Shown in pieces: positions 17,595 to 32,569 of a DNA stretch of 64,000 nucleotides (position 1 is the stretch's first letter; every line of letters starts with the position of its first letter). Made by a program: the position numbers and the translations under genes. A model generated the notes under the pieces. The model was not told the origin of the DNA, did no database searches, and was given only the letters and a program-made list of their open reading frames with translations. Source of the stretch: Roseibium sp. (GTDB lineage Bacteria > Pseudomonadota > Alphaproteobacteria > Rhizobiales > Stappiaceae); NCBI GenBank assembly GCA_017643215.1, contig JAEPNV010000009.1, forward strand, positions 62,001-126,000. Direction: 5' to 3'.

Positions 17595-17715
17595 TTGACA
17601 TAGTCGAGGACAAAACTTCATTTAAATTATCATAAATACGCAATCCTCACCTTATATCACCAATAGCAACTCGAGGATTATTATTATAGTGCGTGAGTAC
17701 TATTCGGCCAATTAT
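17595..17715 (+). promoter_or_regulatory. AT-rich promoter region of the DUF2336 gene pair
   Basis: The 167-base gap between the divergent GST and DUF2336 genes is strikingly AT-rich for this genome. It contains TTGACA at 17595-17600, followed by the tract CATTTAAATTATCATAAAT, which could hold a -10 element although none fits at ideal spacing, and a run of ATTATTATTAT shortly before the start. Only the base composition is certain. Confidence 0.35.
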
Positions 17716-18714
17716 ATGATTGACACGATCCTCGATCTTGCAAAGGACTGCACACCGGAGAAGCGTCGGCAACTTGTCGACCACATCACCAATTTGTTTG
17801 TTGCCCTGTCACTCAAGGACCGGTCGGAAGAACTCAAACTCTTCAACAATATGCTCGAAGGCATCTATGCCTTCCTTGATGCCGATGCCCGGTTTGTGAT
17901 CTCCGACCGGCTGGCGGGGATCGACACGACGTCCCCCCGCCTTGCGCGCAAGCTTGCCAATGACGATTTCAGGGTGGCCCGGCCCACTCTGGAGCGCTCA
18001 AACGCCCTTTCGCAGTCCGATATGATCGAGATCGCGCAGACTAAGGGCCCTGACTACCTGATGGCCCTTGCCAGGCGTGACCATCTCGGCCCGGAACTCA
18101 CCAAGGTGCTGCTTAGCCGCGGTGAAAAGAATGTGCGGCATGCCGTTGCAGCAAATTTGGGCGCGGAAATCACTGAAGATGATTTCAACCGGGCTTTGGC
18201 GGAAATGCCGGAAAAACTCGGCCAACGGACCCGTCATCTGCGCAAGTCCAATCAGGAACTGATCGACGACCTGTTCAGGACCGAAGGCGAGATTGCCGCC
18301 GGCGCTGCGCTTGAAAAACGCGAGGTCAAATTCGATGCCTTCGCATGGCTGTTCGGCATCAAGCACGGCAAGGTGACCGTCAACCAGGCCGTGGCCAAGC
18401 TGACCGTGGCCAACAACCTCTATGAGATCGTTCATATCCTGGCCGGACTGACCGGTCTGGAAGCGAAATACGTCCACAGCCTCATGATCCGCTATGACGC
18501 GACCGGACTTGCCTGTGTTTGCCGAACGGCCGGGGTGGGTGCTGCCGAATACGGATTTATCTGCAAGGTCCGCAGTCAACATCTCAAACTGCCCGAATCC
18601 ACCGGCAAGAAGTGGCTGACCAACTACCATATGCTGGACGAGACCGATGGGCGCCGGCTGACGACGCTGATGAAAATGCAGCTCCAGGTCGCGCGCAGGG
18701 AAAACGCAGCCTGA
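17716..18714 (+). CDS. DUF2336 domain-containing protein (first of a tandem pair)
   Basis: The ATG at 17716 was chosen because it gives 332 residues, exactly the length of the downstream paralogue, and aligns with it from residue 1 (MIDTILDLAKDCTPEKRRQL). The family pattern is clear: RARFVISDRLAG-like helix, VARPTLERSNALSQSDMIEIAQTKGPDYLMALARRDHL, and VLLSRGEKNVRHAVAANLGAEI. It is wholly helical with HEAT-like repeats and no membrane segment or signal peptide. DUF2336 proteins are common in alphaproteobacteria and have no settled biochemical role that I know. A C-terminal third of about 130 residues is shared by the two copies. Confidence 0.9.
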   Translation: MIDTILDLAKDCTPEKRRQLVDHITNLFVALSLKDRSEELKLFNNMLEGIYAFLDADARFVISDRLAGIDTTSPRLARKLANDDFRVARPTLERSNALSQSDMIEIAQTKGPDYLMALARRDHLGPELTKVLLSRGEKNVRHAVAANLGAEITEDDFNRALAEMPEKLGQRTRHLRKSNQELIDDLFRTEGEIAAGAALEKREVKFDAFAWLFGIKHGKVTVNQAVAKLTVANNLYEIVHILAGLTGLEAKYVHSLMIRYDATGLACVCRTAGVGAAEYGFICKVRSQHLKLPESTGKKWLTNYHMLDETDGRRLTTLMKMQLQVARRENAA

Positions 18715-18786
18715 TCCGGGCATGCACATTATCCCACTGGTAAGACTTACAGCCTACCATCTGACGTTCAGATAGTGGTTTTCAAC

Positions 18787-19785
18787 ATGTTCGACGCTCT
18801 CATCGATCTTGTCAAAGACAGCGCCCCGGAAAAGCGCCGTCAGCTTGTCGACCACGTGACGGATCTGTTCCAATCGCTGGAAGGAAAGAACCGGACAGAA
18901 GAGATCAAGCTGTTCAACACAATGCTTGAACGGGTTTACGCAACACTCGATCGCGACACCCGCCAGTTGATCTCAGACCGTTTGGCGAGCAGCAGATCCA
19001 CATCATCCGGTCTGGCCGGATCCATGGCCCGGGACGACCTGCCGGTCGCACGCGCGGTCCTGGAACGCTCCGATGCGCTGGACCAATCCGATCTGCTGGA
19101 GATCGCGCGGACAATGGGCCAGGAACACTTGATGGCGTTGTCGAAACGCGATCATCTGAGCGCCGATTTGACCAAGGTCCTGCTAAGCCGCGGCGACAAG
19201 GACGTTCAACAGGCCGTGGCGTCCAATCTCGGTGCCGAGATCACCGACACCGATTTCGAACGAATCGTGAAGGAGATGCCCAAAGCATTCGGGGACAAAA
19301 TCCGCCACCTGCGCAAATCCAACCAGGAGCTTGTCGAAGACCTTTTCAAGAGCAACGGCGAGATCCCGGCGGGTTCGGAGCTCGACAAAAAACCGGCCAA
19401 GATCGACGCGAAAACCTGGCTGCACGGCATCAAGCTCGGCAAGGCGACCGCCGGACAAGCAATTTCCCAACTGGCCATGGCCAAGAACCTTTTTGAAGTC
19501 GTACGCCTCTTGTCGGTTCTGGCCGGCCTGGACCAGAAATACATCCACAACCTTATGATCCGGTTTGACGCGACCGGTATCGCCTCGGTCTGCCGGGCCA
19601 CAGGCATTGACGCGGCCGAGTATGCGGCGATTTGCAAAGCCAGATGCCAGCATCTGAGGTTTCCCGAATCCACGGGCAACAAGTGGCTGACCAACTACCA
19701 TATGCTGGATGAAACCGACGCGCGCCGGCTCATGACCTTGATGAAGATGCAATTGCGGGCACAGCGCACGACCGAGGCCGCCTGA
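18787..19785 (+). CDS. DUF2336 domain-containing protein (second of a tandem pair)
   Basis: This 332-residue product is a close paralogue of the gene just upstream, colinear along its full length with no visible gaps and with long identical blocks such as PEKRRQLVDH and KWLTNYHMLDETD. The aligned ATG at 18787 is preferred over a GTG at 18775. The gap between the two genes is 72 bases, so cotranscription is likely. Divergence is greatest in the first 90 residues and around residues 190-210. The pair looks like an old tandem duplication whose copies may have specialised or form a heteromer; no function is known. Confidence 0.9.
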   Translation: MFDALIDLVKDSAPEKRRQLVDHVTDLFQSLEGKNRTEEIKLFNTMLERVYATLDRDTRQLISDRLASSRSTSSGLAGSMARDDLPVARAVLERSDALDQSDLLEIARTMGQEHLMALSKRDHLSADLTKVLLSRGDKDVQQAVASNLGAEITDTDFERIVKEMPKAFGDKIRHLRKSNQELVEDLFKSNGEIPAGSELDKKPAKIDAKTWLHGIKLGKATAGQAISQLAMAKNLFEVVRLLSVLAGLDQKYIHNLMIRFDATGIASVCRATGIDAAEYAAICKARCQHLRFPESTGNKWLTNYHMLDETDARRLMTLMKMQLRAQRTTEAA

Positions 19786-20982: not shown

Positions 20983-22245
20983 ATGACAGTCAGCACCAAC
21001 CAGCCCACAAACCGCCCGAATGGATTTGCCGATATTTCGCTGAAGCCACCGTCGGCAGCAAAATCCGTTGCCGGTCAGGAGCCTTCAGCACATGTCGTTA
21101 AAACCATAACGGACCTGATTTCCGCTGATACAACGAGCCGGAACTCAAATCTCGGGCTGATTGAGGCGATCCGGGACATGCTCAAGCCTCTCGGATTCGT
21201 CTCGTCCCTCACCTACGACACCACGCGGATGAAAGCCAATCTGCTGGCAACGCTCCCCGCGGATAATGGGCAACAGACGGGCGGTATCTGTTTTTCCGGA
21301 CACGTGGACACGGTGCCGGTTGATGGTCAGGACTGGTCGAGCGACCCTTTTTCCGCGACCATCCGAAACGGCAACCTTTATGGCCGCGGCGCCTGCGACA
21401 TGAAGGGGTTCGTCGGAACAGCCATATCCGTCGCCGCGGCCCGGGCTGGCTCCCGCCGTGCATCGCCGGTGCATCTGGCCCTGTCCTACGACGAGGAGCT
21501 TGGATGCCTCGGCGTCCCGGCACTGGTGGAAGACATGGTGGCGCGCGATATCAGGCCGGACGGGTGCATCGTTGGTGAACCGACCATGATGGGGATCGTC
21601 TGTGCTCACAAGGGCGCACATGTCGGACGCATCCGGATTGAGGGATTGGCCTGCCATTCATCCCTGGCGCCCGAGGGCGTGAATGCGATCGAACATGCGG
21701 CCAGTGTTATCGTTCACCTCCGGGCGCTTGCAGACCGCTTCGCACAAGACGGTCCGTTCGATGCGTGTTTCGACATTCCCTTCAGCACGCTCCAGACCGG
21801 TGTCATAAAAGGCGGAATTGCGGTGAACACTGTTCCTGCGGAATGCGAATTCACCTTTGAGTTTCGAAATCTTCCAAGCGTGTCGGATGAACGCATAAAG
21901 AAGGTGATCGAGCGCCACATCGAGGAGGTTGCCGCTCCGGCCGTGCGGCGGCGAAAAGCCACGTGCAAGGTGGACATCGACTGGCTTGCCGCGGTTCCGG
22001 CCTTTGCAGCCAATGAGACCGCCAGCTTTACAAGTTTGGTCCGCGCGCTCTGCGACGACCGATCGGAGCGCAAAGTGGCTTACGGAACCGAGGCGGGCCA
22101 TTTCGCACAGGCCGGCATACCCACGCTCGTCTGCGGCCCGGGCGATATCTCACAGGCTCATGCCGCCGACGAATTTGTCAGTCTGCAACAGGTCGCCCGC
22201 TGCGAAACGTTCTTGAACGCACTGTTGGACGCACCCCGGCTGTGA
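20983..22245 (+). CDS. M20-family amidohydrolase, ArgE (acetylornithine deacetylase)-like
   Basis: The 420-residue product has the metal ligand H107 and catalytic-site D109 in SGHVDTVPV, the bridging aspartate D139 in GRGACDMKGF, the catalytic EE pair at residues 171-172 (LSYDEELGCLG), a dimerisation insert and a late metal ligand in YGTEAGHF. This sequence is typical of ArgE, which removes the acetyl group from N-acetylornithine. A roughly 35-residue N-terminal extension is unusual. Because it sits apart from arginine genes and beside a hydroxyacid operon, another N-acyl amino acid is a plausible substrate. A palindrome upstream suggests control by the island's MarR regulator. Confidence 0.9.
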   Translation: MTVSTNQPTNRPNGFADISLKPPSAAKSVAGQEPSAHVVKTITDLISADTTSRNSNLGLIEAIRDMLKPLGFVSSLTYDTTRMKANLLATLPADNGQQTGGICFSGHVDTVPVDGQDWSSDPFSATIRNGNLYGRGACDMKGFVGTAISVAAARAGSRRASPVHLALSYDEELGCLGVPALVEDMVARDIRPDGCIVGEPTMMGIVCAHKGAHVGRIRIEGLACHSSLAPEGVNAIEHAASVIVHLRALADRFAQDGPFDACFDIPFSTLQTGVIKGGIAVNTVPAECEFTFEFRNLPSVSDERIKKVIERHIEEVAAPAVRRRKATCKVDIDWLAAVPAFAANETASFTSLVRALCDDRSERKVAYGTEAGHFAQAGIPTLVCGPGDISQAHAADEFVSLQQVARCETFLNALLDAPRL

Positions 22246-22416
22246 CGCCAAGCGCTCTGCTCATCGCGCTATTCAAATCCGATGCCCGATCCGTGCGTTT
22301 GTCAAACGATGGCGGCATGGCGCCTTCGCCGATCAATCATCGCCGCACAGCGGTTGGTGTGACAAACCATCCATCTTCATGACCTATTTGGCAGCGTTTG
22401 CCCAAATGTTTTGCAC

Positions 22417-22433
22417 TGCAATAATTAATTGCA
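22417..22433. promoter_or_regulatory. Palindrome overlapping the operon promoter, candidate MarR-type operator
   Basis: TGCAAT-AATTA-ATTGCA is a perfect 6-5-6 inverted repeat directly upstream of the -35 element at 22442. A further TTGCAATTG copy overlaps the -35 element itself. A repressor bound here would block RNA polymerase. Confidence 0.5.
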
Positions 22434-22441
22434 TATTGCAA

Positions 22442-22471
22442 TTGACAAGCTAGCTTTTTGCTACCTATTCT
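22442..22471 (+). promoter_or_regulatory. Sigma-70-type promoter for the methyltransferase operon
   Basis: TTGACA (22442-22447) and TATTCT (22466-22471) are separated by 18 bases. The pair lies in an AT-rich island within otherwise GC-rich DNA and beside the TGCAAT palindrome. It is the best match to the housekeeping consensus in the island. Confidence 0.5.
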
Positions 22472-22737
22472 CGTCGTTAGCAGTTGAACACAATCAACAA
22501 ACAAGCTTTGCGTGCAATTTCGATGCGGGATGGTTCCCCCTCGCTGGCCAAGGGCCAAAGCCAAACGACGCCCGTTGGCCGCCCGGGATGATCCTGGACA
22601 CGAGTGGGGTCTTAACAGGGGAGGCCCTGCGCATGACGGTCATGCGGAACCAGGCGGTTGGTCGAGAAAGGCGGAGGAAACAACACGGCACCGTGGCAAG
22701 GAGCGGTCGACACACGTCAGCAATCGGAAGGACCAAT

Positions 22738-23541
22738 ATGATGTATGCCGATGCCAAGACCGAGTCTAAATCCATTGAATTTATTGGAAAAAGATCGTCG
22801 GATTACCGGGATGCCTTGTCCCACTACGCCGACGCATGGCTGCCGGACATCGCTTGCATGAAGCGGTTTCTTCACCCGGCGCCGGGTGAGCGTGTTCTTG
22901 AAGTCGGTGCGGGGAACGGATATTTCAGCGCCGCCATTGCCGACTGTCTCGGTCCCGAGGGGCTTTTGGTTGCAAGCGACCCTTCAACCGATCAGCTGTC
23001 CGGCCTGGAAGCCGCCAGCAAGCACGGCAATATCCGGGTTGTACCGGCATCGGCCGACACGCTTGATATCAATTTCAGCGGCTTTGACGCGATTTGGAGC
23101 CGCGGCGCAATTCATCACGTCACCGACAAAACCTCGGCGTTCACCCGGTTTGCGGAATTGACCCGACCTGGCGGGCGGCTGGCGATCGCGGATATTTTCG
23201 CCGGAACGGCCCTTGCGAGGTATTTCGACAGCTTCATCGCCCGAAGCTGCAGCACCGGCCATGAAGTGGCGTTTTTGTCGCACGAGTTCGCCGAAAGCCT
23301 GTGCGCGCTGACGGGGTGGGGCGAACCCGTCTTCCATGAGGTCATCACACCGTGGGAGTTCAAGAAACGCGAGGATATCGGCCGGTTTCTGCAGCTCTTG
23401 TTTTCGGCAAAACCTGACTACAGTGCCCAAGACTGTTTCGACGCCGCGGACAAGCATCTGAGCGTCAGTGAAACGGCGTCGGGCTGGGCGCTCATGTGGC
23501 CCATGACCGTGATGACATCGGTCCGGCCCGCACATGGGTGA
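22738..23541 (+). CDS. Class I SAM-dependent methyltransferase
   Basis: The start at 22738 follows a GGAAGGA Shine-Dalgarno and gives 267 residues. The SAM site is clear: ERVLEVGAGNGYFSAAIADCLGPEGLLVASDPS (motif I and the acidic end of strand 2), then FDAIWSRGAIHHVTD (motif II) and RPGGRLAIADIF (motif III). This is a methyltransferase domain 11/25-type fold with a variable C-terminal cap. The acceptor cannot be told. It is the first gene of an operon that continues with a prephenate-dehydratase-like protein, two hydroxyacid dehydrogenases and an ABC transporter, so the acceptor may be an aromatic or hydroxyacid metabolite. Confidence 0.88.
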   Translation: MMYADAKTESKSIEFIGKRSSDYRDALSHYADAWLPDIACMKRFLHPAPGERVLEVGAGNGYFSAAIADCLGPEGLLVASDPSTDQLSGLEAASKHGNIRVVPASADTLDINFSGFDAIWSRGAIHHVTDKTSAFTRFAELTRPGGRLAIADIFAGTALARYFDSFIARSCSTGHEVAFLSHEFAESLCALTGWGEPVFHEVITPWEFKKREDIGRFLQLLFSAKPDYSAQDCFDAADKHLSVSETASGWALMWPMTVMTSVRPAHG

Positions 23542-23547
23542 TGGATA

Positions 23548-24702
23548 ATGGCAAGGATCCTCACCATGCGCCGAAGCCGAAAACGCAAAGGATATGGTGC
23601 GAGCACCGTCGAGCGCCGCAAGCGCACAACGTCAAAGGGCCGCTCCAAACCTGATCTCCAAGTCATACGCCCAAACGACAATGGGACGGAGCGAAGATTT
23701 CCAGCATGTGGCCGGCAAATACCGGCTCCCCGTCGACACGGGAACGCGGTCCGCAGCGGCCCCATTGGTTCGTTGGCGATATCGGGAAGCCGGGTGCGGC
23801 CCGAAGTAGCGATCTATCATGGCAGCGTGGGCGCGTTCGCTCATATTGCGTGCAGCAGGGCGTTCCCCGATGCCAGGAGCGTTGCAGGAGCCACCTTGTT
23901 GGAGGTCGTCGATGCGGTGCGAAACGGTACGGCAGATGTCGCTGTTCTGCCGTGTGAAAATGTGCTTGCGGGCCGGGTGCCGGACATTCACATGCTGTTG
24001 CCGGACGCCGGTCTGTCGATAGTCGGTGAGATCTTCCTGCCCATCGAACTTCATCTGGTTGCTCCGGACGGCTGGACCCTTTCGCAGATTAAGCGGGTCC
24101 ATTCCCATCCGGTGGCGCTCAGGCAGGTGCAGCGCTTTCTCAAATCACACGGGCTTGCGGCCGTCGAGGAGAGCAATACCGCCACCGCAGCATCGCTGAT
24201 CAAGCAAAAAGGCAATCGCGCGGATGCCGCGGTCGCCTCGGACCTTGCCGCAGAGACCTATGGCCTCAAAATCCTTGAACCGAACATTGAAGACAATCCC
24301 TTCAACATGACCCGGTTCTATATTCTGGCCTCCTCGCCGGTCGTCCCGGCGGCGGAGCAGCCGGATATCCTGACCTGTTTGATGTTCGAAGTCCGCAATA
24401 CGCCGGGCGCATTGTTTCGTGCCGTGGGCGGGTTTGCAGAAAACGGGATCAATCTGACCAAGCTGGAGAGCTATCTGGTCGGCGGCCAATTCGTGGCGAC
24501 ACGTTTCCTGTGTGAATTTGAGGGTCATCCCGACCTTCCACAGGTTCGCCGAGCGCTCGACACGCTCCAGCGTCATACGACAAGCCGTACCATCATGGGG
24601 GTGTTTCCAATGCATAGCGCCGGGTCGCGAGCCCGCGCCGACAGCAGTCTACCGCCGAACGACCGCGGCTTTGTCGCAAGGTTGTCCCGATGCCGGCCTT
24701 AA
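23548..24702 (+). CDS. Prephenate dehydratase-like protein with C-terminal ACT domain
   Basis: From residue 87 (VAIYHGSVGAFAHIAC) the chain follows the prephenate dehydratase fold: LEVVDAVRNGTADVAVLPCEN, AGRVPDIHMLLP, the HSHPVALRQV motif, and the catalytic TRF motif in NPFNMTRFYIL. An ACT domain follows (FEVRNTPGALFRAVGGFAENGINLTKLESY). The usual ENS motif reads ENV here, so a conserved serine is missing. The first ~82 residues are basic, low in GC3 and unlike the family; a GTG at 23794 may be the true start. The stop overlaps the next gene by 13 bases. In this operon it may make or sense phenylpyruvate rather than serve phenylalanine synthesis. Confidence 0.85.
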   Translation: MARILTMRRSRKRKGYGASTVERRKRTTSKGRSKPDLQVIRPNDNGTERRFPACGRQIPAPRRHGNAVRSGPIGSLAISGSRVRPEVAIYHGSVGAFAHIACSRAFPDARSVAGATLLEVVDAVRNGTADVAVLPCENVLAGRVPDIHMLLPDAGLSIVGEIFLPIELHLVAPDGWTLSQIKRVHSHPVALRQVQRFLKSHGLAAVEESNTATAASLIKQKGNRADAAVASDLAAETYGLKILEPNIEDNPFNMTRFYILASSPVVPAAEQPDILTCLMFEVRNTPGALFRAVGGFAENGINLTKLESYLVGGQFVATRFLCEFEGHPDLPQVRRALDTLQRHTTSRTIMGVFPMHSAGSRARADSSLPPNDRGFVARLSRCRP

Positions 24703-26120
24703 GCCCCCGTCCCGCGCTGGAAGACAACGCGCTGGCAACCGTGTTGTCGGCTCTGAAACCGATGTTGGGCGATCGCCTCTCCACATCCCCGGCCCTGCGC
24801 GAGCAGCATGGTCAAGATGCCAGTTTCCTTCCGCCCTACCCGCCGGATGCGGTCGCCTTCCCTGAAAGTGCGAGCGAGGTCGCCAACATTGTCGCTTTAT
24901 GTCACGACCACGGCGTTCCCGTCATTGCCTTCGGTACGGGCACATCCTGCGAGGGGCATGTGGCCGCTCTTTGCGGCGGCATCTGCCTGGACATGTCCTG
25001 CATGGATACCATCGGGCCGGTGAGCACCACGGACATGACGTGTGTCGTCCAGCCGGGCGTCACCCGAAAAAAACTGAATGCCCATCTCCGAGATTGCGGA
25101 CTGTTCTTTCCGGTGGACCCGGGCGCAGATGCCTCCATTGGCGGCATGATTTCGACCCGCGCGTCCGGCACCACCGCCGTCAGATACGGCACGATGAAGG
25201 ACCACGTTGTCTCTTTGGATGTCATTCTGGCGGACGGGACGCACCTGCGCACGTCAAGTTCGGCCCGCAAGTCTTCGGCCGGATACAATCTGACCCAGCT
25301 TCTCGTCGGCGCGGAAGGTACGCTCGGCATCATCGTCTCCGCGACATTGCGGCTTCATCCCATTCCAGAGGCCGTTGAGACGCAGTTGATGACGTTCTCG
25401 TCTCACACCGACGCGATCGATTGCGCGATCGAAATCATGAGCGCCGGCATCCCTGTCGCCCGGATCGAATATCTTGACGATGTCCAGGTCCGCGCGATCG
25501 AAGCCCATTCGGACCTTGGGCTGACGCTTGGTGATACGCTGATCGTGGAGTGTTCCGGCGATCCTGGAACCGTATCGCGGCAGACCGCGTGGATTGCCGA
25601 AATTGCCGCCGGACATGCGCCGCTTCACGTCGAGACGGCCTGCCGTACGGAAGATCGCGCACGAATCTGGCAGGCACGGCACGATGCCTGGTGGGCCGCA
25701 ATTGCGCTGCGGCCGGGCGCAAAGGGAATTCCAACCGACAGCTGCGTTCCGGTCTCCCGGCTTGCGGAAGCCATCGCCCTTGCCAAACAGGACTGCGCGG
25801 AGCTGGACCTCACCGCACCGATCTGCGGCCATGTCGGCGACGGCAACTTTCACCTTTGTGTCATCTTTGATCCCGACGCCCCGTCGGAACGCGAGAAGGT
25901 CGACGAGCTCATCCGGCGCTTGTCCCGGCGCGCCATTGCCCTTGGCGGAACGATCACCGGAGAGCACGGGATCGGATACGGCAAACGGGCTTATCTCGCC
26001 GAAGAACATGGCGCCGCCGGCGTGCGCGTGATGGCGGCGATCAAGCGGGCGCTCGACCCGCGCAACATCCTGAATCCTGGAAAAATCATAGAGGTCGGCG
26101 AACTGCCGCCATTTGAATGA
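24690..26120 (+). CDS. FAD-linked D-2-hydroxyacid dehydrogenase (D-lactate dehydrogenase/GlcD family)
   Basis: The 476-residue product has the FAD-binding PCMH fold, with FPESASEVANIVALCHDHGVPV, GTGTSCEGH and PGADASIGGMISTRASGT, and the C-terminal substrate domain ending in the family signature GTITGEHGIGYGK and ALDPRNILNPGKI. The metal/substrate histidines in CGHVGDGNFH are present. Family members oxidise D-lactate, glycolate, D-2-hydroxyglutarate or aryl hydroxyacids and pass electrons to a cytochrome or flavoprotein. It is coupled by overlap to the upstream gene and is followed after 18 bases by the L-type enzyme, so both enantiomers of one acid may be used. Confidence 0.92.
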   Translation: MPALSPRPALEDNALATVLSALKPMLGDRLSTSPALREQHGQDASFLPPYPPDAVAFPESASEVANIVALCHDHGVPVIAFGTGTSCEGHVAALCGGICLDMSCMDTIGPVSTTDMTCVVQPGVTRKKLNAHLRDCGLFFPVDPGADASIGGMISTRASGTTAVRYGTMKDHVVSLDVILADGTHLRTSSSARKSSAGYNLTQLLVGAEGTLGIIVSATLRLHPIPEAVETQLMTFSSHTDAIDCAIEIMSAGIPVARIEYLDDVQVRAIEAHSDLGLTLGDTLIVECSGDPGTVSRQTAWIAEIAAGHAPLHVETACRTEDRARIWQARHDAWWAAIALRPGAKGIPTDSCVPVSRLAEAIALAKQDCAELDLTAPICGHVGDGNFHLCVIFDPDAPSEREKVDELIRRLSRRAIALGGTITGEHGIGYGKRAYLAEEHGAAGVRVMAAIKRALDPRNILNPGKIIEVGELPPFE

Positions 26121-26138
26121 GGGGGAAGCATCGGTTCG

Positions 26139-27380
26139 ATGACACATCGTCAACACTCCATTGCCGATTTCCGTGAAACAGCACGGCGGAGACTGCCGCG
26201 CTTTGTCTTCGATTTCATCGACGGCGGCAGCGGAACGGAGAACACCCTGGCGGAGAACCGGAGTGCCCTCGATCGCATTCGGCTGGTCGGTTCCGCGCCC
26301 ACCGACATCAGCACCTGTTCCCAAACGGTCAGCCTGTTCGGCCAGCATTATGACATGCCGGTCCTCATCGGTCCCACCGGTCTGGCGGGCGCCGCATGGC
26401 CGCGCGGCGACGTGGATCTGGCGCGCGCCGCGTCTACCCACAACATCCCCTTTGTCATGAGCACCGCAGCGACCGCCACCATGGAAGACGTCGCAGGTGC
26501 GGGCAGCGGAGCCAAGTGGTTCCAGCTTTACATCTTCAAGGATCGCGCGGTCAGCAAGCGGTTGGTATCGAAGGCGCAAAGCCTCGGCTTCGGGGCGCTT
26601 GAGATCACCGTTGACAATGCCATTCCAGGACGCCGGTTGCGCGATGCAAGAAACGGCTTCTCCCTGCCGTTCCGGTGGACCCCGGCAAAGCTGGCCAGCC
26701 TTGCCGCTCACCCGGGCTGGAGCCTGCGGACGGCGCGCGCCGGCGCGCCGAAGCTGGAGGTCATGGCGGCCGAACTCGGCCTGGAAAAAGCGGACACGAT
26801 CGCCGAACTCATGCAATCCCAACTCGATCCGTCCGTCGACTGGGAAGACATCAAATGGGTGCGGGAGGCATGGGACGGCCCACTGATCGTCAAAGGCATG
26901 CTCGATCCAGGGCAGGTTTCGAAGGCGTTGGACATCGGTGTTGACGGGCTGGTCATCTCCAATCACGGCGGACGCCAGCTGGATGGCGCGATCGCAACAA
27001 TCGACATATTGCCGGAGTTTCGGGCCGAAGCCGGGTCCAAGCTCACCCTTCTTGTCGACAGCGGCTTCCGGACAGGCTCGGACATTGCCCGCGCGCTGGC
27101 GCTTGGCGCCGATGCGGTCCAGGTTGGCCGCGCAACCCTTTACGCGCTGGCGTGTGGCGGCGAGGCAAGCGTCGATCAGGCGCTCTCCATTCTCAAGAGC
27201 GAGCTTAACGTCGCGCAGATGCTTATGGGCGCACGTGAGATCCAAGACTTCGGCGCATCCATGGTGCGGTGTCACCCCGCACCCGGCAAATCCGAACCGA
27301 TGACGGCTGCGGTTGCCGCCTCCCAGCGGTCCGGCCCTCTCTCCCTGGTTACCGAAAACAGGCAAGGCAAGCTGCCCTGA
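26139..27380 (+). CDS. FMN-dependent L-2-hydroxyacid dehydrogenase (LldD/mandelate dehydrogenase-like)
   Basis: The 413-residue TIM-barrel protein has the family motifs PRFVFDFIDGGSGTENTLAENR, GPTGLAGAAWPRGD, WFQLYIFKDR and the catalytic base H276 in ISNHGGRQLDGA. The FMN-phosphate site DSGFRTGSDIARALALGADAVQVGRATLY resembles (S)-mandelate dehydrogenase (MdlB) more than typical L-lactate dehydrogenase, to judge from recalled sequences. It would oxidise an L-2-hydroxyacid to the 2-oxoacid at the membrane. Its operon partners include the D-specific enzyme and a prephenate-dehydratase homologue, pointing to an aromatic acid such as phenyllactate or mandelate as the substrate. Confidence 0.92.
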   Translation: MTHRQHSIADFRETARRRLPRFVFDFIDGGSGTENTLAENRSALDRIRLVGSAPTDISTCSQTVSLFGQHYDMPVLIGPTGLAGAAWPRGDVDLARAASTHNIPFVMSTAATATMEDVAGAGSGAKWFQLYIFKDRAVSKRLVSKAQSLGFGALEITVDNAIPGRRLRDARNGFSLPFRWTPAKLASLAAHPGWSLRTARAGAPKLEVMAAELGLEKADTIAELMQSQLDPSVDWEDIKWVREAWDGPLIVKGMLDPGQVSKALDIGVDGLVISNHGGRQLDGAIATIDILPEFRAEAGSKLTLLVDSGFRTGSDIARALALGADAVQVGRATLYALACGGEASVDQALSILKSELNVAQMLMGAREIQDFGASMVRCHPAPGKSEPMTAAVAASQRSGPLSLVTENRQGKLP

Positions 27381-27452
27381 CGCGATCCAGGCTGAACCGA
27401 ACTGCGAATTCCGACCTTCCGGGAAAACCAAACACTGAAAGGACCATCCAAT

Positions 27453-28421
27453 ATGCTTCGACAGAAAATAACAGCCTTCGCCGCGGCCGCGTTGTTGTCG
27501 GCAACAGTTTCAGGTGGCTCGGCAACGGAGATGACCGAGGTCGCGATCACCTACATCATCGATCATCCTGCCATCGACGCGGCGCGTATGGGGATCGTTG
27601 ATGAATTGGCCGCGGGCGGTTTCAAAGAGGGGGAAACGCTCGCCCTTCGCGTTCAAAGCGCCCAAGGCAGCATGCCCACACAGCTTCAGATCGCAAAGGA
27701 ATTCGCGGGCTTGGAACCCGATCTGCTCGTCGCCATCAGCACACCGTCGGCGCAGGCGCTTCAAAGCACGGCCGGCGATATTCCGCTTCTTTTTTCGGCC
27801 GTCACCGATCCGGTCGACGCCAAACTGGTCGACAGTATCGAGGCACCGGGCGGGAACATCACAGGCACAACAGACAAACAGCCCTTCGGGCCAACCTTGA
27901 CGCTGATCAAGACGCTCGTGCCGGACGCGAAAAAGATCGGCGTCATCTATAATGCCGGCGAGGCGAATTCCGTTGCACAGGTCGCCGCCTTGAAGGTGGA
28001 ACTGGAGGAGCACGGGCTGGAGATTGAGGAAAGCACCGCCTCCCAGACGGCTATGGTCGCCGATGCGGCCCTCAGCCTTGCCGGGCGTGCGGACGCCATC
28101 CTTATTCCAACGGACAGCACCGTGGTGGCGGCTGTGGAGAGCGTGGTGAATGTTGGCGAAAGAGCCAAAATCCCGGTCTTTGCCAGTGACACGGATTCCG
28201 TTGAACGCGGCGCGCTGGCCGCCCTTGGCTTCGACTACTACAAGCTCGGACGCTTGACCGGTGAAATGGCCGTGCGCGTGTTGAACGGGGAAAGCCCGGC
28301 GGCGATCCCGGTGGGATCTCTGGACACCCAAGACCTTTACTTGAACAAAACCGCCGCCGCCGCAATGGGCGTGACACTTCCCGATGACATGCTGAACAAG
28401 GCCACGAAGGTGATCCAGTAA
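27453..28421 (+). CDS. ABC transporter substrate-binding protein, TrpX/ABC_sub_bind family
   Basis: The 322-residue precursor has a cleavable signal peptide (basic MLRQK, hydrophobic core, likely cut after residue 24, SATEM) with no lipobox. The mature part follows the two-lobed ABC_sub_bind fold: DLLVAISTPSAQALQS, LLFSAVTDPVDAKLVDS, NITGTTDKQPF, KKIGVIYNAGEANSVAQV and GALAALGFDYYKLGRLTGEMA. Homologues of known role bind tryptophan or other aromatic amino acids. A GAAAGGA Shine-Dalgarno precedes it. The permease and ATPase follow at once, so the transporter is complete. Confidence 0.92.
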   Translation: MLRQKITAFAAAALLSATVSGGSATEMTEVAITYIIDHPAIDAARMGIVDELAAGGFKEGETLALRVQSAQGSMPTQLQIAKEFAGLEPDLLVAISTPSAQALQSTAGDIPLLFSAVTDPVDAKLVDSIEAPGGNITGTTDKQPFGPTLTLIKTLVPDAKKIGVIYNAGEANSVAQVAALKVELEEHGLEIEESTASQTAMVADAALSLAGRADAILIPTDSTVVAAVESVVNVGERAKIPVFASDTDSVERGALAALGFDYYKLGRLTGEMAVRVLNGESPAAIPVGSLDTQDLYLNKTAAAAMGVTLPDDMLNKATKVIQ

Positions 28422-28422
28422 G

Positions 28423-29355
28423 GTGAGTGCGCTAGCTGTCGCCGGCGCCATTGAAGCCGGCCTTCTTTTCTCCCTTGTGGCGCTTGGTGTTTATCTCTCG
28501 TTTCGCGTCCTCAATTTCCCCGACTTGACGGTCGATGGCAGCTTCCCGCTCGGGGCTGCCGCGACCGCGGTCGCGATCATTCATGGTGTCGATCCGTTCC
28601 TTGCAACGGCCATCGGCACCTTCGCCGGCTGTTGCGCAGGCTTCGTATCGGCCTATTTGAACGTCCGGTTCCGGATCCTGAACCTGTTGGCGGGCATCCT
28701 GACCATGGTGGCCCTCTACTCGATCAATCTGCGGGTGATGGGCCGCCCGAACATTTCGCTTTACGGTGAAGACACCATCTTCACCGCATTCGAGGGACTG
28801 ATTGACCTCGGGATTTGGACGACCAGCGCGATCCTCCTGGTTATCGCCGTTGTCATGAAGCTCCTGGTTGATTGGTTTTTGGGAACACAGGTCGGTCTGG
28901 CGCTCAGGGCCAGTGGAGAGAATCCGGCCATGGCCCGGGCGCAATCGGTCAGCAACGGGCGGATGACGCTCGTCGGCATGACCGTGAGCAACGCTCTCGT
29001 CGGTCTGGCCGGTTCCCTATTCGCCCAAAGCCAGGGCGTTGCCGATGTCTCGCTGGGGATCGGTACGATCGTAACCGGCCTTGCGGCCTTGATCATTGGC
29101 GAAACCCTCCTGGGCTCCGTCAAGGTTTTCTGGGCCACCCTTGGCTGTCTCATCGGCGCGCTTCTTTACCGCCTGTTTATCGCCGCCGCCCTCAGCGCCG
29201 GGTTTTTGGGCATTCAGGCGCAAGACCTCAATCTCGTCACGGCCGTTGTTGTTGCAATCGCCGTCATTCTGTCCCAGGCCAGGCGGAACAGCCGCTTCAA
29301 GCTCTGGCCAAAGATGCGGAGCCTCCTGATGGATACGCAGCCGCAGAAAGGCTAA
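28423..29355 (+). CDS. ABC transporter permease of the TrpY/branched-chain-like type
   Basis: The GTG at 28423 follows the binding-protein stop by a single base. The 310-residue product has about eight hydrophobic segments and the usual sequence for partners of TrpX-type binding proteins: LVALGVYLSFRVLNFPDLTVDGSFPLGAA, a cytoplasmic loop GLALRASGENPAMARAQS that contacts the ATPase, and GLAALIIGETLLGS. It forms the membrane channel of the importer, most likely as a homodimer. Confidence 0.92.
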   Translation: MSALAVAGAIEAGLLFSLVALGVYLSFRVLNFPDLTVDGSFPLGAAATAVAIIHGVDPFLATAIGTFAGCCAGFVSAYLNVRFRILNLLAGILTMVALYSINLRVMGRPNISLYGEDTIFTAFEGLIDLGIWTTSAILLVIAVVMKLLVDWFLGTQVGLALRASGENPAMARAQSVSNGRMTLVGMTVSNALVGLAGSLFAQSQGVADVSLGIGTIVTGLAALIIGETLLGSVKVFWATLGCLIGALLYRLFIAAALSAGFLGIQAQDLNLVTAVVVAIAVILSQARRNSRFKLWPKMRSLLMDTQPQKG

Positions 29356-29359
29356 AGCC

Positions 29360-30157
29360 GTGCTGAGTATTTGCGACGCCTTTGTCACGTTCAATCCCGG
29401 AACCCCGCTGGCGGTCCCGGCCCTTCGCGGTGTCGACCTCGACATCAAGGAAGGGCAGTTCGTCACGGTCATCGGCACCAATGGCGCCGGCAAGTCGACG
29501 CTTCTGTCGGCCGTTGCCGGGGATGTCCGCCTCGACAAGGGCGGCATCTATATCGACGGACATGATGTCACGAACTGGCGCACCGAGCAGCGTGCCAGCA
29601 TGATCGGCCGGGTGTTTCAGGAACCGCGCGCCGGCACCTGCAGCGGCCTGACCGTGGAGGAAAACCTGGCGCTTGCGGCCAGCCGCGGCAGCAACCGAAG
29701 CCTGCGCAATGCGCTGGGCGGGGGCCGCCAACGGCGCCAGTTGGCCGACCAGCTCTCGCGGCTCGACATGGGACTGGAAGACCGGCTCGGCGCCATGGCC
29801 GGGACGCTTTCAGGAGGGCAACGACAAGCGCTCAGCTTGCTGATGGCGACCTTGCTGCCGATGAAAATCCTCATCCTGGACGAACACACCGCGGCTCTTG
29901 ATCCCGGCGCCGCAGCAACGGTCCTCGCGCTGTCTGCGGAAATCACCGGGGAGCAGAAGCTGACGACGCTCATGGTGACGCACAGCATGCGCAACTCACT
30001 CGACTACGGTGACCGCACCATCATGATGAACAGCGGCCGCATTCTGCTGGACGTTCATGGCGACAAGAGAAAGGGCTATGACGTGCCTGATCTTCTTGAC
30101 CTTTTCAAGAAAACCACCGGCACAGAAGTGGAAGACGACCAACTCATTCTCGCCTGA
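29360..30157 (+). CDS. ABC transporter ATP-binding protein of the TrpX-type importer
   Basis: The GTG at 29360 lies four bases after the permease gene. The 265-residue ATPase shows Walker A (GTNGAGKST), a Q-loop (FQEPRAGT), signature (LSGGQRQALSL), Walker B (ILILDEHTAALDP, with His after the catalytic Glu) and the switch histidine in MVTHSM. It energises import of the operon's substrate. It is the last gene of the plus-strand operon that begins at 22738. Confidence 0.94.
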   Translation: MLSICDAFVTFNPGTPLAVPALRGVDLDIKEGQFVTVIGTNGAGKSTLLSAVAGDVRLDKGGIYIDGHDVTNWRTEQRASMIGRVFQEPRAGTCSGLTVEENLALAASRGSNRSLRNALGGGRQRRQLADQLSRLDMGLEDRLGAMAGTLSGGQRQALSLLMATLLPMKILILDEHTAALDPGAAATVLALSAEITGEQKLTTLMVTHSMRNSLDYGDRTIMMNSGRILLDVHGDKRKGYDVPDLLDLFKKTTGTEVEDDQLILA

Positions 30158-30195
30158 CGGTGCGATCCATTCCGCAGTTTTTGGCGGACCCGACC

Positions 30196-30534
30196 CTACA
30201 GCGCCGCGCGCTCGCGTGCCAATTCCTTGATCAACAACCCCGGCGGATTTTCAGGAACCATCTGCCGCAAACGGCTTATTCTCAACTCCGAAAACAATCC
30301 CGCCCGCGAATAGGGTTCGGCATCCAAAAACGCGTCAACCGCCTCGCGGGTATCGTAGGACAGCACCATGAGACTTCCGATCACTTTCGACCCGTCGTCG
30401 TTTTGCAACGGTCCGCCGAAGGTCACCTGGTCGCTGTGGGCGATCATGTATTCAAGGTGCTCGGCGCGCGTGCGCTGGCGAAGGTCGCCGGCATCTGACC
30501 GGTCGATACAATGCACGACAAATGGCATGGCCAC
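30196..30534 (-). CDS. YciI-like protein
   Basis: The 112-residue product has the YciI fold: FVVHCIDRSDAGDLRQRTRAEHLEYM, followed by a GGPL segment, SLMVLSYDTREAVDAFLDAEPYSRAGLF. The conserved His in the HLEYM helix and the acidic residue in the DAEPY motif form the putative active site of the family. Its biochemical role is not established; relatives occur in aromatic catabolic gene sets as muconolactone-isomerase-like fold proteins. It is on the minus strand between the ABC operon and marR and divergent from marR, so their promoters share the gap. Confidence 0.85.
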   Translation of the reverse strand: MAMPFVVHCIDRSDAGDLRQRTRAEHLEYMIAHSDQVTFGGPLQNDDGSKVIGSLMVLSYDTREAVDAFLDAEPYSRAGLFSELRISRLRQMVPENPPGLLIKELARERAAL

Positions 30535-30639
30535 CCCTATTCAATCTGGCGTCACGGCCGTCCAAAAAAGCGTTTCCCTCCTTGGTAATTGGGCGTCAGC
30601 GGATTAAGCCGTTGCCGAGGACAATTAAAAAGGATACAT

Positions 30640-30652
30640 TTGCATTATGCAA
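30640..30652. promoter_or_regulatory. Palindrome across the marR start codon, candidate autoregulatory operator
   Basis: TTGCAT-T-ATGCAA is a perfect 6-1-6 inverted repeat, and the ATG at 30647 of marR lies inside it. The TTGCA arms match those at 20824 and 22417. Binding here would block expression of marR itself. Confidence 0.5.
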
Positions 30653-31216
30653 CTATTTAGCAATCAAAATCCAGATCGACCCGAACACGAGACCGGCCAA
30701 GAGAAAGCGGGGCCGGGCGCGACGCTTCAACTGGAGGGCTGGCTCCCCTACCGGCTGTTCCGGATCTCCACCCGTGTTGCGGATGTTCTCAACGCGTTCT
30801 ACGGACCCAAGTTCGGCCTTTCCAGGTCCGCCTGGCGCACCATGGCCATCATCGCAAACCGGCCCGGTGTCAGCGCCAAAGAGATTTGCCAGGCGGGCGG
30901 CCTTGACCAATTCGCGGTGTCGCGTGCGGTCAAGCAACTCGTGGAACTGGGATTTGCGCAACGCCAGGCGGGCCGCTCTGACCGGCGCTATGCGGCCATC
31001 GAGCTTTCGGAGACCGGCTGGACGGCTTTCACCGAGATCTCGGACCTTGCAAAACGTCTTGAGACCGAACTGGTCAGTTCGGTCTCGCCCGACGAACTGG
31101 AAGTCCTGAACGGGATCCTGGCAAAGCTTGACGATGCCAGCGCCGGCATTTTGGCGCGCGGGTGGCGGAGCGTGAGGGACGCGCCCGGGCCACAAGATCC
31201 AAAACCCGAGACTTGA
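30647..31216 (+). CDS. MarR-family transcriptional regulator
   Basis: The 189-residue product has the winged-helix core between about residues 40 and 140: FYGPKFGLSRSAWRTMAIIANRPGVSAKEICQAGGLDQFAVSRAVKQLVELGFAQRQAGRSDRRYAAIELSETG, whose recognition helix is DQFAVSRAVKQLVELG and wing is SDRRYAAIEL. A hydrophilic N-terminal tail and C-terminal extension lie outside the core. MarR proteins usually repress nearby genes and release DNA on binding small aromatic acids. Palindromes of the same type stand at its own start and before two operons in the island, so it is the likely local regulator. Confidence 0.92.
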   Translation: MQLFSNQNPDRPEHETGQEKAGPGATLQLEGWLPYRLFRISTRVADVLNAFYGPKFGLSRSAWRTMAIIANRPGVSAKEICQAGGLDQFAVSRAVKQLVELGFAQRQAGRSDRRYAAIELSETGWTAFTEISDLAKRLETELVSSVSPDELEVLNGILAKLDDASAGILARGWRSVRDAPGPQDPKPET

Positions 31217-31274
31217 GCGGGCCATCCCGGACAGGTCCTTTCCATGGACCGGACCGCCGGAACGAAAGGAAAGC

Positions 31275-32192
31275 ATGAGCGCGTTTCTTTTTGCGGCGAC
31301 GGCCGTCCTGTGGGGCAGCAGCGCCATCGTGACCGGTCACCAGGCGATCTCGGGCGCTCCTGAGGTATCGGTCGGATACCGGATGGCGCTGGTCAGCCTC
31401 GTCATGTTCGCCTGGAGCATGGCACGCGGCGAGAAAATCGGCCTCCGGCAAATCGACCGGCCCTGGGTCGCGCTCCAGGGCGTCCTGTTTTTCGGCCTGG
31501 CCTTCATCACCTTTTATCACTCCACGACGCTGATCACCTCGGGCATTTCGGCGCTGATCCTCTCGACTTCCTCCCTGTTCGCGGCCGTTGTGGGCTGGCT
31601 GTTCCTGTCGGCGCCCGTCACCTTGCGTATGGTGTTCGGGATCATGTCCGGCATTGCCGGTCTTGCCGTGATTGCGCTGCCGCAGCTTCTGGTCCTGTCG
31701 TCCAACACCCAAACCCTGGCCGGCGTTGCCCTTGCCCTGGCGGCGGCGGCCTGCACCGGATGCGGCACCGTTGTCGCCATGCGAAACCAGCACGCGGGCA
31801 TACCGATTTCCGTGCTCATCAGCTGGGCCGCCCTTTGCGGCGCGGCGTTTTCGTTCGCACTGGCGCTGTTCGGGGACATGAGCTTCAGGGTCGATGTTTC
31901 TCCAACCTACCTCGCCGGGCTGGCCTATCTGGCGATCATGGCCTCCTGCGTCACGTTTTTCATGTATTTCAGTTTGGTGCAGCGCATAGGCCCGGCCAGC
32001 GCGTCCTACACGCTGGCGCTGGTACCGGTGGTTGCCCTGCTTCTGTCAGCCCTTTTTGAGAACCTGACGATCGACCTCTACGTGCTGGCCGGCGGGATTG
32101 CGGTTCTGATCGGCAACATTCTGGTTCTCAGCGCGCCAGGCAAACAGCGGGCGCCGGTAAAAGCGGCTCAGGGAAAAGGGAAACCCACATGA
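31275..32192 (+). CDS. EamA/DMT-superfamily transporter
   Basis: The 305-residue product has ten predicted membrane segments arranged as two EamA repeats (about residues 1-135 and 145-290), with typical motifs such as LWGSSAIVTGHQAI, ALILSTSSLFAAVVGWLFL and GPASASYTLALVPVVALLLSALFENL. Family members export amino acids or metabolites. It is 58 bases after marR and overlaps ridA by four bases (ATGA), so the three genes are probably one unit. It could export a toxic intermediate or excess product of the island's pathway. Confidence 0.9.
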   Translation: MSAFLFAATAVLWGSSAIVTGHQAISGAPEVSVGYRMALVSLVMFAWSMARGEKIGLRQIDRPWVALQGVLFFGLAFITFYHSTTLITSGISALILSTSSLFAAVVGWLFLSAPVTLRMVFGIMSGIAGLAVIALPQLLVLSSNTQTLAGVALALAAAACTGCGTVVAMRNQHAGIPISVLISWAALCGAAFSFALALFGDMSFRVDVSPTYLAGLAYLAIMASCVTFFMYFSLVQRIGPASASYTLALVPVVALLLSALFENLTIDLYVLAGGIAVLIGNILVLSAPGKQRAPVKAAQGKGKPT

Positions 32193-32569
32193 ACAAGCAG
32201 GTCTTCGGCGTCCATCCCGTGGTTCCACTCTCCTCGGCAGTCAGAGCCGGCGATTTCATCTTCCTGTCCGGCCAGGTGCCGTTCGGTCCTGGCGGGTCTC
32301 TGGTGGGCGGCGACATTGAAACGCAGACCCGGCAGGTGCTAGACAACATTGCGGCCGCACTTGAAGAGGCCGGGGCGTCGCTCGGCGATGTCGTGAAGAC
32401 GACCATTTGGCTGACCGACCGGCAAGACTTTGCGCGCTTCAATGCGGTCTATGCCCAGTACTTCCCGCATCCGCCACCGGCGCGGTCGTGCGTCGGCGCC
32501 CCTTTGATGGTCGACGCGAACGTGGAGATCGAAGTGGTCGCCTACCGGCCGGTATCCGCCAAGGATTAG
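32189..32569 (+). CDS. ridA: RidA-family enamine/imine deaminase
   Basis: The 126-residue product has the trimeric RidA/YjgF fold, with the conserved arginine in the PPARSCVGA motif that holds the substrate carboxylate, and GDFIFLSGQVPFGPGG and GDVVKTTIWLTDRQDFARFNAVYAQYF. RidA hydrolyses reactive enamine/imine intermediates made by PLP and flavin enzymes that act on amino acids. Its ATG overlaps the DMT transporter stop, so it belongs to the marR unit. Its presence suggests that amino-acid-derived imines arise in the pathway. Confidence 0.93.
   Translation: MNKQVFGVHPVVPLSSAVRAGDFIFLSGQVPFGPGGSLVGGDIETQTRQVLDNIAAALEEAGASLGDVVKTTIWLTDRQDFARFNAVYAQYFPHPPPARSCVGAPLMVDANVEIEVVAYRPVSAKD

Follow-up and report, generated by a model that had tools for sequence, protein, structure and literature searches.

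What does a gene island do that places a methyltransferase (MT), a paralogue of prephenate dehydratase with its ACT domain (PDT) and two flavin-dependent 2-hydroxyacid dehydrogenases, here called the FAD enzyme and the FMN enzyme, next to a complete TrpX-type importer (TrpXYZ)? We addressed this question for such an island of Roseibium sp., which lies in a window of 64,000 nucleotides (contig C42, positions 62001-126000, in a genome of 4.99 Mb and 42 contigs); all positions given below without a locus name are those of the window. Our analysis suggests that the island is devoted to MarR-controlled uptake and oxidation of aryl-2-hydroxyacids, most likely 4-hydroxyphenyllactate and/or phenyllactate, a reading that we consider slightly better than even (probability about 0.52). 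We infer the substrate, and the direction and stereochemistry of its oxidation, from the observed gene families, their conserved order and their linkage in Variovorax. The original prediction had already proposed an aromatic 2-hydroxyacid, and this is supported, chiefly by the Variovorax cluster, which joins the FAD enzyme, TrpXYZ and the FMN enzyme to 4-hydroxyphenylpyruvate dioxygenase (HPPD). Among the acids it had named, those of the phenyllactate type, i.e., aryl-lactates, stand, and mandelate and indolelactate have become less likely.

Under this proposal, TrpXYZ would import the aryl-2-hydroxyacid, and the FMN enzyme would oxidize its L-form and the FAD enzyme its D-form, both to the arylpyruvate, with the electrons presumably passing to the respiratory chain. 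The arylpyruvate would then be converted by HPPD to homogentisate and enter central metabolism through genes located elsewhere in the genome, or, in Variovorax, beside the cassette. MarR would repress the operon and itself through the palindrome TTGCANNNTGCAA until an aromatic ligand arrives, whereas the EamA, RidA and YciI proteins probably handle overflow or reactive side products.

Aryl-lactates enter the environment from many plants, fungi and lactic acid bacteria, and in the open-access literature we found no description of a dedicated uptake-and-oxidation operon for them. Nor did we find there a described pathway with this gene set, in agreement with the original prediction, although this negative is weak because the searches covered open-access papers only. 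Ordinary enzyme families occur here in a combination for which we found no description; a regulon for taking up and oxidizing aryl-lactates explains it best. The unit is compact, with an importer, a pair of presumably stereospecific oxidases, a regulator and a putative operator, and is present in cultured soil and marine bacteria. The island also points to a conserved PDT paralogue and an MT whose chemistry lies outside the proposed route.

Organization and conservation of the island

The plus-strand operon (22738-30157) comprises the following genes:

22738-23541, plus strand: MT, class I S-adenosylmethionine-dependent methyltransferase (Pfam, AlphaFold model, Foldseek)
23548-24702, plus strand: PDT (PF00800 and PF01842); the first ~85 codons may not be translated
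24690-26120, plus strand: FAD-linked D-2-hydroxyacid dehydrogenase of the LDHD type (domain, solved-relative and residue comparison)
26139-27380, plus strand: FMN-linked L-2-hydroxyacid dehydrogenase of the (S)-mandelate-dehydrogenase type (domain, solved-relative and residue comparison)
27453-28421, plus strand: TrpX-type substrate-binding protein (SBP; PF04392, solved relatives, residue comparison)
28423-29355, plus strand: TrpY-type permease (PF02653)
29360-30157, plus strand: TrpZ-type ATPase (ABC ATPase family)

The genes are separated by short gaps or overlap: MT ends at 23541 and PDT starts at 23548, PDT ends at 24702 and the FAD enzyme starts at 24690, the FAD enzyme ends at 26120 and the FMN enzyme starts at 26139, and TrpX, TrpY and TrpZ start at 27453, 28423 and 29360, respectively. 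This spacing bears out the tight operon that had been claimed. The operon is flanked by an M20 deacylase gene upstream and by YciI, MarR, EamA and RidA genes downstream. All gene families named in the original prediction are present, at exact or very near coordinates; its list lacked one island gene, that for YciI, on the minus strand (30196-30534).

When the GTDB collection was scanned with the FMN enzyme, 21 loci were obtained. The gene set recurs in 16 of these, with FMN-enzyme identities of 63-89%. Gene presence in the 16 islands was scored at half length plus a set identity, both thresholds being of our choosing. MT, PDT, TrpX, TrpY, TrpZ, MarR and EamA occur in every one of the 16, the FAD enzyme in 12, YciI and RidA in 10 each, and M20 in a single island. 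The FMN enzyme is present by construction, because the loci were fetched with it, which does not apply to the other genes. The FAD gene is only fragmentary in locus L011, and none was seen in L014, L015 and L019. The hosts are members of Stappia, Breoghania, Oceaniradius, Chelativorans and Rhizobium, two metagenome-assembled genomes and one further Rhizobiales genome.

In the remaining 5 of the 21 loci (FMN-enzyme identity 35-53%), the only further resemblance to the island consists of distant ATPase matches in L025. As a control, the surroundings of 29 FMN-enzyme homologs (L042-L070; 38-45% identical, ~4.1 kb each) were searched, and no other protein of the island or of the Variovorax cluster was found at E 1e-15. 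The island is rare and patchily distributed across relatives: of 397 genomes sampled across the order, 3 gave an MT match, including the window's own, and of 385 sampled across the class, 1 did, again the window's own; the 7 other genomes of the same genus among those listed gave none.

One further locus, on a plasmid of Rhizobium sp. 11515TR (L032:8478-13951), looks like the product of an internal deletion. Here, the FMN enzyme, TrpXYZ and MarR are matched over most of their length, MT over 76 of 267 residues, the FAD enzyme over 48 of 476 and EamA in two fragments, and PDT was not found.

Linkage to HPPD in Variovorax

Among 72,556 plasmid records searched at the protein level with the FMN enzyme, a match of 64.9% identity was found on plasmid CP063167 of Variovorax paradoxus VAI-C. 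The gene run there consists of an indolepyruvate (ferredoxin) oxidoreductase (IFOR)-family gene, YciI, MarR, a tripartite-transporter binding protein, HPPD, a second YciI and an HmgA-like gene, followed by a FAH-family gene, the FAD enzyme, TrpXYZ, the FMN enzyme, RidA, an MFS transporter and a DUF2817 protein. The HPPD scores 297 bits, above the equivalog cut-off of 277, and the IFOR protein 962 bits, above the subfamily cut-off of 816.

The two clusters share related FAD enzymes (55% identity), TrpX, TrpY and TrpZ (48, 54 and 58%, respectively) and FMN enzymes, as well as the YciI, MarR and RidA families, for which the likeness is at the family level (41 and 36% for the two YciI proteins, 29% for MarR and 36% for RidA). 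By contrast, only the Variovorax cluster includes HPPD, HmgA-like, FAH-family and IFOR genes, and the search of the CP063167 stretch detected neither MT nor PDT nor EamA. This linkage, a single example, ties the shared core of FAD enzyme, TrpXYZ and FMN enzyme to arylpyruvates.

In the Roseibium genome, HPPD and HmgA both exceed their cut-offs and lie outside the island, with HPPD on contig C2 and the island on C42; HPPD thus shares a cluster with the island core only in Variovorax. HPPD exceeds the cut-off in 13 of the 16 island genomes, a count that covers island genomes alone. A wider sampling for further HPPD-linked clusters brought none: when the Variovorax FMN enzyme was searched at E 1e-80, 77 of 398 Pseudomonadota genomes gave a match, and among the matches listed only the window's own was above 45% identity.

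A related FAD enzyme, together with an Lrp regulator, an IFOR-family gene and YciI, is encoded on a plasmid of Variovorax sp. RA8 (L096:8944-14830), and this cluster perhaps represents another aryl-lactate route, with a branched-chain-type importer. The neighbors of the FAD enzyme on plasmids of Bosea, Shinella and Sphingobium were considered as a further clue and set aside, these being mixed operons and not specific.

The two dehydrogenases

The FMN enzyme contains an FMN_dh domain with the catalytic His and Arg, and its best solved match is (S)-mandelate dehydrogenase (6bfg), ahead of lactate, glycolate and hydroxyacid oxidases. The FMN enzyme aligns with 6bfg from end to end, also in the segment ahead of residue 215, which is replaced in 1huv, and Gly81, Tyr131, Arg166, His276 and Arg279 of MdlB are kept. 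Tyr26, which binds the carboxylate in (S)-mandelate dehydrogenase, is retained in Variovorax but is Phe in all 18 island copies. In NCBIfam, the nearest model is L-lactate dehydrogenase PRK11197, with 350 bits, under the cut-off of 376.

The closeness to MdlB and the preserved Gly81 could indicate catabolism of mandelate or hydroxymandelate. However, no mdl partner families were found among the island proteins, neither benzoylformate decarboxylase nor mandelate racemase (a genome-wide search was not made), and the oxidation product of mandelate is not known to be used by HPPD, which acts on phenylpyruvate-type acids; such a pathway would not be expected to supply this enzyme. Mandelate is accordingly the less likely acid, and we regard this function as highly improbable.

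The FAD enzyme combines FAD_binding_4 and FAD-oxidase_C domains, and its nearest solved structure is mouse LDHD. The equivalents of LDHD His398, His405 and Trp351 are kept; the residues V101/W351/S365/I407 of its hydrophobic pocket correspond to C/W/P/C in the window, in all 13 other alphaproteobacterial copies aligned and in Variovorax. Mouse LDHD accepts D-phenyllactate, albeit as a poor substrate (kcat/KM 0.117, compared with 0.50 for D-lactate; PMC10589216). The original prediction had emphasized the presence of both D- and L-enzymes, which stands for the window but not for the islands at large, given that the FAD enzyme is missing or fragmentary in 4 of the 16. The FMN enzyme is the core component and the FAD (D-) enzyme an optional one, present in 12 of 16 islands.

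The TrpX-type importer

A PF04392 SBP, a PF02653 permease and an ABC ATPase lie together within the operon, as expected of a TrpXYZ system. The only NCBIfam match of the SBP is the TrpX equivalog, with 270 bits against a cut-off of 390, and we therefore speak of a TrpX-type protein rather than of TrpX. The importers that include SP1069 of S. pneumoniae, VC_1101 of V. cholerae and CD0873 of C. difficile have the same three-part ABC architecture and the same SBP family, and provide the nearest solved SBPs. These relatives were crystallized with Phe, Tyr and Trp, and the opening of the pocket for Trp is attributed to Gln284 in SP1069, a Tyr at this position being said to exclude Trp (PMC6816091). 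The equivalent residue is Tyr in all 19 SBPs of the islands and Variovorax.

These observations bear on the possibility that the island serves the utilization of indolelactate or another tryptophan-derived acid. The TrpX match itself and the IFOR-family gene of the Variovorax cluster would fit such a role, but the SBP keeps the Tyr that is reported to exclude Trp, which makes indolelactate less likely, and the substrates of HPPD again are of the phenylpyruvate type. We consider a tryptophan-derived substrate very unlikely.

Two other SBP positions set the islands apart. At residue 222, all 18 islands have Ser, whereas the three solved SBPs, three TrpX proteins from outside the islands and the Variovorax SBP have Asn. 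At residue 34, all 18 have Tyr, and the others compared have Gln or Ala.

A putative MarR operator

The candidate regulatory features of the island are:

22411-22421: upstream partner in a tandem palindrome pair, TTGCACTGCAA, at position -327 from MT
22429-22441: putative operator TTGCATATTGCAA, with a -35-like TTGACA directly after it (position and conservation before MT)
30640-30652: second putative operator TTGCATTATGCAA, spanning the marR start
30647-31216, plus strand: MarR regulator, which probably recognizes the operator (Pfam; 16 of 16 islands)

The palindrome TTGCANNNTGCAA occurs exactly at both operator positions of the window. If up to one mismatch is allowed, it precedes MT in all 17 islands and is found at the marR start in 16 of the 17 (not in L022); it additionally precedes EamA in each of the 6 Rhizobium-type islands, and in the Chelativorans island one copy also lies upstream of the M20 gene. 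The copy before MT is followed immediately by TTGACA in the 11 aligned loci and by TTGATT in the 6 Rhizobium-type islands. The upstream partner TTGCACTGCAA is exact in 5 of the 11 aligned loci and within one mismatch in 9, whereas beyond the palindromes the MT leader (~270 bases) is poorly conserved in the 11-locus alignment and yielded no Rfam match to a riboswitch up to E 0.5.

Across the Roseibium genome, the palindrome has 1 exact long-form site and 5 places with at most one mismatch (control, 1). Exact copies of WTTGCANNNTGCAAW number 0-6 places in each of the 16 island genomes, with at least one in 15 of them, and the control gave 0 in all. In the 25-kb Variovorax stretch searched, no copy of TTGCANNNTGCAA with at most one mismatch was detected. 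In the islands, the palindrome is shared by the promoters of the regulator and of its target, as in a MarR regulon. We infer the binding from this arrangement of sites, and the locus is probably a local MarR regulon, a repressor switch that would act through the putative operator.

The methyltransferase and the prephenate dehydratase paralogue

The substrate of MT could not be derived from structure. The AlphaFold model has a mean pLDDT (predicted local distance difference test) of 84.2, and Foldseek returned only assorted class I methyltransferases (BioC, RebM, JHAMT and others), relatives too general to name a substrate.

PDT is a second copy; the canonical PheA is encoded elsewhere in the genome and is 43% identical over residues 89-353. 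The paralogue contains both the PDT and the ACT domain of PheA, and scores 336 with NCBIfam PRK11899, under the cut-off of 359. It keeps the EN motif and TRF (TRS in one island), but all 18 island copies have Ala or Val in place of the GAxS serine, so that the conserved hydroxyl is lost. The corresponding GxxGxx(S/T) site, defined from the five PDTs compared, is Ser or Thr in four solved PDTs and in the genome's own PheA. Against the L009 copy, the PDT core has 31/15/77 changes at the three codon positions, a third-position bias that is a sign of protein-level selection, whereas the first 85 codons, an arginine-rich stretch (23548-23800), have 31/22/36, with little codon-position bias. The true start of PDT may therefore lie downstream of the annotated one. 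In Oceaniradius stylonematis (L024:7470-8565), PDT is matched in two frames with a break near 8325, and the second frame continues into the FAD gene.

The nearest solved structure of PDT is 7alz, an entry named 'Prephenate dehydratase' that we take to be GqqA of Komagataeibacter, a PDT that also acts as an N-acyl homoserine lactone (AHL) acylase. Quorum quenching by a GqqA-like PDT was considered and rejected: the docked AHL contacts in GqqA are Tyr16 and Ser17 (PMC8192741), and they correspond to Phe and Ala in the window PDT. Because of these replacements, acylase activity is not predicted; we found nothing on GqqA mutants at the residues in question.

The presence of MT, PDT and EamA in 16 of 16 islands each, along with the separate palindrome copy of EamA in 6 of 6 Rhizobium-type islands, would also fit a biosynthetic branch in which an arylpyruvate-type compound arises through PDT, is methylated by MT and leaves the cell through EamA, with the dehydrogenases and the importer recycling a reduced form. 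This direction is at odds with the loss of the GAxS hydroxyl from every island PDT and with the flavin dehydrogenases, which in both types represented here are expected to run oxidatively. It is equally at odds with the plasmid of Rhizobium sp. 11515TR, where matches to the FMN enzyme, TrpXYZ and MarR extend over most of their length, those to MT, the FAD enzyme and EamA are fragments and PDT is undetected. A biosynthetic role is thus unlikely.

Weighing the proposed function

Uptake and oxidation of aryl-lactates is favored by the Variovorax linkage, the nearest solved relatives of the FMN enzyme, the FAD enzyme and TrpX, the acceptance of D-phenyllactate by mouse LDHD, the occurrence of HPPD and HmgA in the genome and the conserved palindrome at MT and marR. 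Several observations weigh against it. The proposed route has no step for MT and PDT, although both occur in every one of the 16 islands; our guess is that they modify the arylpyruvate or form a side branch from it. The linkage to HPPD was seen once, in a stretch where MT and PDT were not found; a search of 349 genomes from the order of a Burkholderia (L028) at E 1e-105 gave 0 cases, with no positive control, and 3 of the 16 island genomes have no HPPD over the cut-off. Furthermore, the HmgA-like protein of CP063167 is a remote relative of homogentisate dioxygenase (65 bits against a cut-off of 511) and the FAH-family protein has no fumarylacetoacetase assignment; given the former, the lower pathway in Variovorax may act on a variant compound. 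The palindrome is not more frequent in the window than expected by chance (3 places with at most one mismatch, compared with a mean of 1.52 in shuffles, 21 of 100 of which reach 3), so that the case for it is made by place and conservation alone. An Asp in the SBP at the tyrosine-OH contact (the Glu263 site) was rejected as proof of a 4-hydroxyphenyl ligand, because it is not discriminating, being found also in non-island TrpX proteins of Sinorhizobium, Rhizobium and Pseudomonas. Finally, mouse LDHD works best on aliphatic D-2-hydroxyacids (PMC10589216).

The preference of LDHD, along with the PRK11197 lactate dehydrogenase as the nearest NCBIfam model of the FMN enzyme, would suit dehydrogenases that oxidize lactate or aliphatic 2-hydroxyacids, such as 2-hydroxyisocaproate and 2-hydroxyisovalerate, with the importer being a relic aromatic-type protein. 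Against this stand the retention of the TrpX-type importer in all 16 islands, the HPPD linkage in Variovorax and the closer relationship of the FMN enzyme to mandelate dehydrogenase than to lactate and glycolate oxidases among solved structures. We therefore regard an aliphatic substrate as unlikely.

The islands and Variovorax also differ at two possible ligand-contact sites, SBP N222 (changed to Ser) and Tyr26 of the FMN enzyme (changed to Phe), and their ligands may therefore not be identical. In the set compared, both changes are found in the 18 clusters with MT and PDT and not in Variovorax, which lacks these genes; this is a single contrast, but because the changes accompany MT and PDT, it would fit a scenario in which the alphaproteobacterial islands handle another compound than Variovorax, either a non-aromatic, prephenate-like 2-hydroxyacid (of a prephenyllactate type) or an aryl-lactate whose head group differs. 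Oxidation by the flavoenzymes would then produce a prephenate-like 2-oxoacid that the remodelled PDT and MT aromatize and methylate. Such a route, which we consider a long shot, would, if true, represent a new catabolic use of shikimate-pathway chemistry. Aryl-lactate uptake and oxidation remains our preferred reading of the locus.

Flanking and accessory genes

The other genes of the island are:

20983-22245, plus strand: M20 ArgE-like deacylase of the PRK07522 subfamily (NF005710, 517 bits, cut-off 412); accessory, probably island-linked
30196-30534, minus strand: YciI-domain protein (YciI domain; 10 of 16 islands)
31275-32192, plus strand: EamA/DMT transporter, a presumed exporter (family match; 16 of 16 islands)
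32189-32569, plus strand: RidA-family protein (family match; 10 of 16 islands)

The original prediction had raised an N-acyl amino acid as the precursor of the hydroxyacid. This idea may apply to some islands: the window M20 shares 60% identity with its counterpart in the Chelativorans island and 41% with the second PRK07522 protein encoded in the Roseibium genome, a likeness in favor of a deacylation step linked to a few islands; 15 of the 16 other islands have no M20. In Chelativorans xinjiangense (L019:13981-17522), the M20 gene, with its upstream palindrome, and an MFS transporter gene are bordered by an intact YciI gene on one side and by fragments of another FMN-enzyme gene and YciI on the other, as if inserted by partial tandem duplication.

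Upstream of the island (17689-19785), two open reading frames, 17689-18714 and 18775-19785, are tandem, visibly similar genes encoding proteins of ~340 amino acids each.

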